DNA of 64,000 nt. Origin: Promicromonospora sukumoe 327MFSha3.1. Its GTDB lineage: Bacteria > Actinomycetota > Actinomycetes > Actinomycetales > Cellulomonadaceae. Below are positions 35,965 to 37,374 of the stretch, piece after piece. The DNA is taken from the NCBI RefSeq assembly GCF_000385135.1, contig NZ_ARQM01000010.1, positions 1,550,001 to 1,614,000 of the forward strand, written 5' to 3'. Below the pieces are notes generated by a model that saw only the letters and a list, made by a program, of their open reading frames with translations, ran no database searches and was not told the DNA's origin. The position numbers and the translations under genes were made by a program. Each line of letters starts with the position of its first letter. Position 1 is the first letter of the stretch.

Positions 35965-36159
35965 CTAGTGGTTCCTGCGGAAGCGGTTGAGCAGCGAGAT
36001 ACCGCCGAAGGTGACCCAGGCCACCACGACCGTGGTGACCGCCGCGACGAAGAGGCCGCTGCCGACCGTGTAGGCGATCACCCCCGAGACGCCTCCGGCG
36101 ATGAACGGCATCAGGGCGTCGCCGTCGACCCGGCGTGGTCGTTCGGGAGTCTGGTCCAT
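35965..36159 (-). CDS. Small membrane protein
   Basis: A 64-residue product with a polar N-terminus (MDQTPERPRRVDGD), two hydrophobic stretches (about 17-50) and a basic tail (NRFRRNH). No family recognised. The hydrophobic pattern and codon use look genuine. It is downstream of the cold-shock gene on the same strand, separated by a terminator-like hairpin. Confidence 0.55.
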   Translation of the reverse strand: MDQTPERPRRVDGDALMPFIAGGVSGVIAYTVGSGLFVAAVTTVVVAWVTFGGISLLNRFRRNH

Positions 36160-36178
36160 GTGCACGAGGCTAGTGCGA

Positions 36179-36215
36179 CACGGCCCCTCCCTGCGCGAGG
36201 GCGGAAGGGGCCGTG
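36179..36215 (-). terminator. Hairpin after the multi-cold-shock gene
   Basis: CACGGCCCCT pairs with AGGGGCCGTG around a 17-base loop, starting seven bases after the stop of the cold-shock gene and lying before the small membrane gene. Confidence 0.55.
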
Positions 36216-36221
36216 CTCGGG

Positions 36222-37184
36222 TCACAGCAGCTCGACGCCGTCGGCCTGCGGTCCCCGGTCGCTCTGGCGCACCTTGTACCGGACCCGGTCGCCCTCCTCC
36301 AGGACCTCGTCGCCCCGCACGACCGACACGTGCACGAACAGGTCCTCGCCCCCGCCGTCGGGCGTGATGAAGCCGAAGCCGCGGTCCGCGTCGTAGCGCG
36401 CGACGGTGCCCTTCCCGCCGCGCACCGGCCCGCCCGATGCCGCGGGGCGGCCCGGCCGGCCGCGGTCCGACGTCGGGCGCGCACCCCTGGAGCCGCGCGC
36501 GAGCTGCACGTTGCGGGCGTTCGGCCCCTTGTCGCCGTCGACGACGTCGTACGTGACGCGAGCACCCTCGGAGAGCTCGGTCAGCCCCCGGCCGAGCCCG
36601 CTGACGTGGACGAAGATGTCCTCGCCACCCGAGTCGGGCGCGACGAACCCGAAGCCCTTGGTGTCGTCGTACCAGGACACCGTGCCGTCCGCGCCATCCG
36701 ACTGCACGGCAGGCCGGCCCGCTTCCGCCCCGAGCGGCAGCAGGTGGTCCGCCTGCGGCCCCTTCTCCCCGTCGACGACGAGGAACGCCACCCGCTGCCC
36801 CTCGGAGATCACGCCGCCGCCGACGATGGCCGAGCTGTGCACGAAGATCTCGGCGCGACCGCCCTCGGGCGTGACGAAGCCGTAGCCCTTGGCCGGCTCG
36901 TACCAGGTGACGGTGCCGAGCACACCGAGGGGCGCGTCGGCGGCCCGGTCGCCCGTGACCCGGACGCGGCGCGCCATGGGGCCACGCTCGCCCTCGCCCA
37001 CCTCGAACTCGACGGCCTGCCCCTCCCGGAGCTGCTTGGGTCCGTCGTCGCCGACGATCTCCGACGCGTGCACGAACAGGTCCTCGGCCTCGTTCCCGAG
37101 GTCGATGAAACCGAACCCTCGGTCGGCGTCGAACCATCGAACAGTTCCTTGCGGCAACTCAGACTCCTCGTTCTGTGCAGACAT
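36222..37184 (-). CDS. Protein of four tandem cold-shock domains
   Basis: A 320-residue protein made of four consecutive cold-shock domains at about residues 12-76, 88-151, 165-229 and 258-319. Each has the two RNA-binding motifs: GFGFID/DLFVHAS, GYGFV/IFVHSS, GFGFV/IFVHVS and GFGFI/DLFVHVS. A 27-residue Arg/Gly-rich linker (about 231-257) separates the third and fourth. Ordinary bacterial cold-shock proteins are single domains of about 70 residues, so this layout is unusual. Expected to bind single-stranded RNA or DNA over a long footprint. ATG at 37184; no close AGGAGG seen. Confidence 0.9.
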
Positions 37185-37374
37185 TGCTGTGGTCCAGTGT
37201 CCCTGACGGAACCCGGCTGATCGTCCGCGAGGCCCGGGCGGGTGAACGTGCACCGCATGGCGCGAAGCCTCTTGACCACCACAGCCCGCCCCGATAGTCC
37301 GGTATGTGCCGATGGCCAGGTGCGAACGAGGCGAGTGGTCACCGGTACAGACCCAGCCGCTACCGAGGAGAGTC

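Follow-up and report, generated by a model that had tools for sequence, protein, structure and literature searches.

Bacterial cold shock proteins (Csps) are defined by a single cold-shock domain (CSD), the aromatic residues of which stack bases, with six base subsites per domain (PMC7825780, in excerpt). Bacterial proteins with duplicated CSDs are nevertheless on record, as in the alphaproteobacterium Caulobacter, where the two-domain proteins CspC and CspD are associated with stationary phase and, in the excerpts consulted, are described as RNA-binding (PMC4830024, PMC4551563), CspC acting mainly through RNA stabilisation (PMC4551563). Longer strings are found in the eukaryotic protein Unr/CSDE1, in which canonical and non-canonical CSDs (ncCSDs) alternate, and a Clostridium protein is predicted to mix the two types as well (PMC7383231, in excerpt).

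The gene analyzed here, which we call csd4, lies in a window of 64,000 nucleotides of Promicromonospora sukumoe 327MFSha3.1 (all coordinates below are those of the window). Its product is a protein of the CSD family PF00313 and not a classical single-domain Csp: the latter has one CSD of about 70 residues, whereas the csd4 protein has 311 residues and four CSDs. Like Csps of the CspA/CspB/CspE type, it has bacterial-type CSDs with the motifs RNP1 and RNP2, which in a CSD lie on a five-stranded barrel (the motifs are present in csd4 and the barrels are predicted); it differs from them in having four domains per chain, two aromatic positions that are changed in all four and an Arg for the Trp of the fourth. 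The Caulobacter pair, with which we compared csd4 by description only, shares the bacterial duplication of CSDs, with two domains rather than four. Among proteins of solved structure, the best sequence relatives of csd4 are a bacterial Csp (65.6 bits), then YB-1 (approximately 44 bits) and then Unr (23.8 bits). The Y-box protein YB-1 has one CSD plus an Arg-rich disordered stretch, a combination seen also in csd4, although with a single CSD of lower score. Unr/CSDE1 resembles csd4 as a string of CSDs of which some are altered at binding residues, but its domain sequences are different and, according to the excerpt, its ncCSDs alternate with canonical ones (PMC7383231), whereas all four domains of csd4 match PF00313 and carry both motifs. 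As far as searched (open-licence papers, among the matches listed), no four-CSD bacterial protein was found and the four-domain form is undescribed; the domain itself is very well known.

The csd4 gene and its flanking signals

The original prediction for this locus was of a single protein of 320 residues (36222-37184, from an ATG) with four complete CSDs, each with both RNA-binding motifs. That frame is open on the minus strand; the plus-strand reading of the same stretch is open too, but is without any CSD motif. PF00313 matches the minus-strand frame in four separate stretches (277 bits summed, Table 1) and, as each domain scores 69-76 bits against the cut-off of 27 bits used in our genome search, a chance match is excluded. 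An RNP1-like sequence, [KR]G[FY]GF[IV], and an RNP2-like sequence, [IL]FVH, are present in each domain, so that both the number of domains and their motifs were as predicted. A conserved tail, ADHLLPLG, follows D2 in the alignment. The NCBIfam models for CspE, CspA, CspC and CspD all match csd4 simultaneously, which we take to reflect summed domain scores. A split or misassembled frame, named beforehand as the finding that would overturn the prediction, was ruled out by the recurrence of the four-domain frame at 80 of 80 related loci, these being the best 80 of 233 candidates confirmed in a scan of a genome collection (best-segment identity 71-90%). The host genome (6.25 Mb in 18 contigs) has six CSD matches besides csd4, three of which are canonical Csps. 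One host locus (L009) encodes a CSD that, unlike a plain Csp, has a long C-terminal extension (189-residue open frame).

Table 1. Features of the csd4 locus, in coordinates of the window.
Feature	Position	Strand	Details
Four-CSD gene csd4	36222..37157	minus	TTG start, TGA stop, 311 aa
CSD 1 (D1)	36957..37151	minus	W-F / RGFGFI / LFVHA; PF00313, 76.0 bits
CSD 2 (D2)	36741..36920	minus	W-Y / KGYGFV / IFVHS; PF00313, 69.0 bits
CSD 3 (D3)	36501..36689	minus	W-Y / KGFGFV / IFVHV; PF00313, 75.0 bits
D3-D4 linker	36414..36500	minus	Arg/Gly-rich; low model confidence, likely disordered
CSD 4 (D4)	36231..36413	minus	R-Y / RGFGFI / LFVHV, Arg for Trp; PF00313, 69.9 bits
Ribosome-binding site of the TTG, GAGGAG	37164..37169	minus	GGAG in 80/80 relatives
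Upstream block GTCAGGGACACTGG	37194..37207	minus	Alignment of 23/81 upstream regions
Terminator-like strong hairpin directly 3' of the stop	36178..36216	minus	No T run; -36.5 kcal/mol, z -4.2, for a 65-base stretch

The ATG start was rejected in favor of a conserved TTG nine codons further in (37157-37155). A start codon is found at the same place in all 80 relatives (78 GTG, one TTG and one ATG; best 80 of 233), five codons ahead of a VRW motif and with GGAG just upstream. An in-frame stop lies directly ahead of this start in 18 of the 80 and within ten codons of it in 23. Judged by this alignment, the ATG of csd4 is probably not used as a start.

The block GTCAGGGACACTGG, located approximately 25 bases ahead of the ribosome site, varies somewhat but is for the most part conserved between genera; the block and the ribosome site together have one occurrence in the host genome. 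It is perhaps part of a putative promoter or operator; a promoter scan at csd4 returned no sigma-70-type site. Cold-induced Csps of the cspA type have a long structured 5' leader. At csd4, the alignment of upstream regions (23 of 81) loses support after about 50 bases and, as nothing aligns beyond the GTCAGGGACACTGG block, the locus gives no indication of a long leader of this kind. No Rfam family scored over threshold at csd4, and one sub-threshold match to a snoRNA was dismissed.

The hairpin behind csd4 was not called by a scan for T-run terminators. The 70 bases 3' of the stop ranked in the top 10% of random windows for folding stability at 27 of 80 loci, with about 8 expected, which is only suggestive of a terminator conserved among the relatives. 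csd4 itself looks like a single-gene unit. Adjoining it downstream is a hydrophobic-looking open frame of 64 residues (35965-36159, minus strand) that has no Pfam match and recurs, among the 80 loci (best 80 of 233), only in P. kroppenstedtii (L033). At the other end of the gene, several early codons (37154-37137, minus strand) are kept across the 81 sequences, GGA in 70, ACT in 49 and CGA in 48; these codons are less used in the csd4 family, yet are retained at the gene start, which they perhaps keep unfolded.

Binding residues, linkers and predicted structure

The aromatic platform of a classical Csp consists of W8, F15, F17, F27, H29, F30 and F38. We examined the equivalent positions in 352 domains of 88 four-domain proteins (the best 80 of 233, the window protein and seven more divergent ones), with the register taken from an alignment with the host genome's own Csp and with numbering that we take to be that of BsCspB. 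Every domain of all 88 proteins has Phe or Tyr at the equivalents of F15, F17 and F27, and His at that of H29. At the W8 position there is Trp in D1 and D2 (88/88 each), while D3 has Trp in 79 proteins and Phe in 9; in D4, where Csps have the stacking Trp, the residue is Arg in all 88 proteins. The F30 position is occupied by A, S, V/A and V in D1 to D4, respectively, and is aromatic in only two of the 352 domains, while the F38 position is aromatic in none, albeit in a variable loop where the register is less sure. The csd4 domains consequently do not have the full classical platform, being changed at F30, at F38 and, in D4, at W8. Because of these changes, and as the K7 position is basic (Arg) in D1 only, each domain may bind weakly by itself. 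Arg being present in every D4, its replacement of Trp is an old, fixed change, in a domain that is still under purifying selection (see below).

An Arg/Gly-rich linker had also been predicted, and was identified between D3 and D4, where 15 of 29 residues in the window protein are R or G. Across the 88 proteins this linker has 20% R and 26% G, as against 9% and 16.5% in the whole proteins; it is 24-52 residues long (median 31.5), with an R+G content of 30-66% and a net charge of 0 to +8, and is RGG-like at two loci (L138 and L140). The D1-D2 and D2-D3 linkers have a median of 13 residues. The AlphaFold model of csd4 has four five-stranded barrels and low-confidence linkers (pLDDT 74, pTM 0.31), residues 222-244 (310 modeled) scoring under 50 in pLDDT, and includes no trusted packing between the domains. 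The top three Foldseek matches of the model were multi-CSD fragments of Unr at 19-20% identity, with TM scores (0.19-0.28) that are low, as expected of a beads-on-a-string layout, and the best single-domain matches were bacterial Csps (~40-51% identity).

The original prediction held that the protein recalls eukaryotic multi-CSD proteins rather than a bacterial Csp. With regard to layout this stands, since Unr is what the model recalls, but in sequence the protein is like a bacterial Csp, by the bit scores given above. That it is nonetheless no plain Csp is supported by the missing Trp of D4 and by the absence of two more Csp aromatics from all four domains. As only the layout is Unr-like, the likeness is probably convergent and restricted to layout, and from the sequences compared there appears to be no sign that the array is homologous to Unr.

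We favor, with fair but not high confidence, the reading that the csd4 protein is a stand-alone, multivalent chaperone of single-stranded RNA (and ssDNA). In such a protein four OB-fold CSDs, joined by two linkers of ~13 residues and one longer Arg/Gly-rich linker, would each grip about six nucleotides, and these contacts, weak one by one, would together give binding that is tight but still rather unspecific, by which mRNA could be kept single-stranded or be spaced along the protein. We infer RNA binding, avidity, a chaperone role and high expression. In favor of this reading are the four PF00313 matches, the aromatics and His retained in every domain, the purifying selection on each domain, the dnaK-like synonymous divergence, the modeled barrels and the RNA-binding two-CSD protein CspC of Caulobacter; against it are the changed F30, F38 and K7 positions, the missing Trp of D4, the lower conservation of D3, the lack of csd4 in three genomes of the genus and the lack of any indication of a long leader. 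The domains would divide roles, with D1-D3 retaining the RNP aromatics as well as the Trp (replaced by Phe in a few of the D3s), and D4, with its Arg, probably binding more by charge or serving as a spacer or partner-binding domain.

The Arg of D4 may also be read differently, in that D4, and perhaps other domains, would bind no RNA alone and would instead position the binding domains or dock a protein, in the manner of the ncCSDs of Drosophila Unr. In agreement with such a scaffold are the Trp to Arg change at the stacking position in 88 of 88 proteins, the appearance, as top Foldseek matches, of Unr CSD789 and CSD456, in both of which canonical CSDs occur together with ncCSDs, and the account, in the excerpt, of Unr ncCSDs that bind no RNA alone and fix spacing (PMC7383231). 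We regard it as unlikely, however, as the same excerpt describes Unr ncCSDs as being without the RNA-binding motifs and as having an extra loop (PMC7383231), while D4 retains RGFGFI and LFVH and scores as an ordinary CSD, and the model has no domain packing that could be trusted. A very unlikely alternative is a role directed at ssDNA in the control of replication or repair, as proposed for E. coli CspD, which is cited as a replication inhibitor (PMC4551563, in excerpt). CSDs make little distinction between ssDNA and ssRNA, and the binding of BsCspB to DNA is about ten times tighter (PMC7825780, in excerpt), but no replication or repair gene is found among the conserved neighbors of csd4 (13 query loci tried); as a four-domain array is equally compatible with RNA and DNA, this role is unsupported rather than refuted.

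Returning to the multivalent RNA chaperone, a bolder form of it, which we think improbable, is that csd4 encodes an actinobacterial mRNP-packaging protein whose four subfunctionalized CSDs and Arg/Gly linker would coat mRNA and drive RNA-protein condensates. If true, it would be a bacterial counterpart of the Unr and Y-box particles of independent origin, which would have arisen a second time in the three-CSD family with RGG linkers described below. In any case csd4 allows a direct test of what the stringing of CSDs does to RNA affinity and selectivity, and its hosts also carry single-domain Csps that would serve as internal controls.

Age of the duplication and a separate three-domain family

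Identity between the domains of one csd4 protein is 34-62%, with a median of 48% (window protein, 41-56%), whereas D1, D2, D3 and D4 of the window have median identities of 85, 89, 75 and 87%, respectively, to the corresponding domains of 81 proteins found outside the genus. D1, D2 and D4 form one group each in a tree of 106 domains (support 67/93, 97/74 and 96/97), while D3 is not quite one group (two changes, and two single-CSD rows fall inside it); as the tree has 65 columns only and its bootstrap had not settled, we read it for these groups rather than for its deep forks. Because D1, D2 and D4 each group with their counterparts across genera, the duplication predates those genera, which agrees with the view, taken initially from the similarity without identity of the domains, that it is old.

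In each of the four domains, D4 included, dN was lower than dS in all nine comparisons (dN 0.014-0.262, dS 0.12-0.71); D3 is conserved less than the other domains (0.81 versus 0.88-0.91). For 30 genomes with dnaK and grpE close by (435 pairs), the median pS was 0.255 for csd4, 0.262 for dnaK and 0.376 for grpE, with csd4 below dnaK in 210 pairs and below grpE in 405. Such synonymous divergence would fit a well-expressed gene. We considered a hidden nucleotide-level or overlapping signal in the csd4 coding sequence and rejected it, as the synonymous divergence equals that of dnaK and codon use is enough to explain it.

A second family in the same order also has several CSDs per chain and Arg/Gly-rich linkers. 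Its three-CSD proteins with RGG linkers (L143, on the minus strand, and L153-L158) are encoded by 6 of the 149 genomes sampled from the order, which belong to two genera within one family, according to a search with the L143 protein whose seventh match (G076) was csd4 itself. The domains of L143 are 71-83% identical to each other and canonical, with aromatic residues at the W, F30 and F38 positions, and the domains of the family form their own group in the domain tree. It represents a separate, independent and apparently younger duplication. No genome among the 149 has both csd4 and the three-CSD family; given 24 and 6 carriers, chance would produce about one overlap, and mutual exclusion was rejected as not significant. 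The conserved and strongly constrained four-domain family, with its fixed residue pattern per domain, and the three-CSD family together show that CSD arrays with Arg/Gly linkers have evolved in bacteria as well.

Distribution and genomic neighborhood of csd4

Among the best 80 of 233 relatives, the genera represented are Promicromonospora, the loci of which are among the closest, Cellulosimicrobium, Oerskovia, Isoptericola, Myceligenerans, Xylanimonas, Cellulomonas, Actinotalea, Luteimicrobium, Knoellia, Terrabacter, Phycicoccus, Ornithinimicrobium and others. The sample of the order (149 genomes, including that of the host) gave 25 matches, one of which belongs to another family, leaving csd4 in 24 genomes, with 21 intact four-domain frames, one cut by a contig end and two broken. 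Across 296 genomes sampled from the phylum, csd4 had no match other than the host's own genome (E 1e-25; few candidates scored per genome). Within the genus, csd4 is present in 10 of 13 genomes; since the other three (G001, G008 and G011) keep 5, 6 and 5 CSD matches, csd4 is dispensable there. We sought an empty csd4 site in these non-carriers via a neighboring membrane-protein open frame, the position of which proved not to be kept: it lies ~90 kb from csd4 in G010, has no match in G001, G009 or G011, and has a 35% match in G008.

Short matches in several genomes gave the appearance of three-domain variants of csd4, none of which was upheld. The DNA of G047, G071 and G114 encodes four domains with longer linkers; the frame of G063 is cut by a contig end; those of G030 and G141 (an assembly of 580 contigs) break before D4 and within D3, respectively; and G155 is a member of the distinct three-CSD family.

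The only conserved neighborhood of csd4 is a dnaK-grpE block, found at 33 of 81 loci on the same strand with csd4 upstream, dnaK being ~140-4000 bases past the csd4 stop and, in the closest cases (~140-200 bases), separated from it by a gap only. The linked loci (within L022-L075, e.g., L026 and L042) are mostly those of Cellulosimicrobium, Oerskovia, Isoptericola, Luteimicrobium and Antribacter. This arrangement would be consistent with csd4 working with dnaK-grpE as an Hsp70 partner that, under heat or protein stress and not in the cold, helps mRNA to be translated or to survive. We consider such a partnership highly improbable, as 48 of the 81 loci, including that of the window, have no dnaK nearby (some are cut by contig ends), no other neighbor recurs in at least 12 loci (13 query loci tried), and a position inherited in one clade explains the linkage equally well. 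Lastly, in the record labeled Sphaerisporangium cinnabarinum ATCC 31213 (L050), the csd4 coding sequence shares 98% identity with the one from Cellulosimicrobium funkei (L052), and this record is probably a mislabeled or contaminated assembly.
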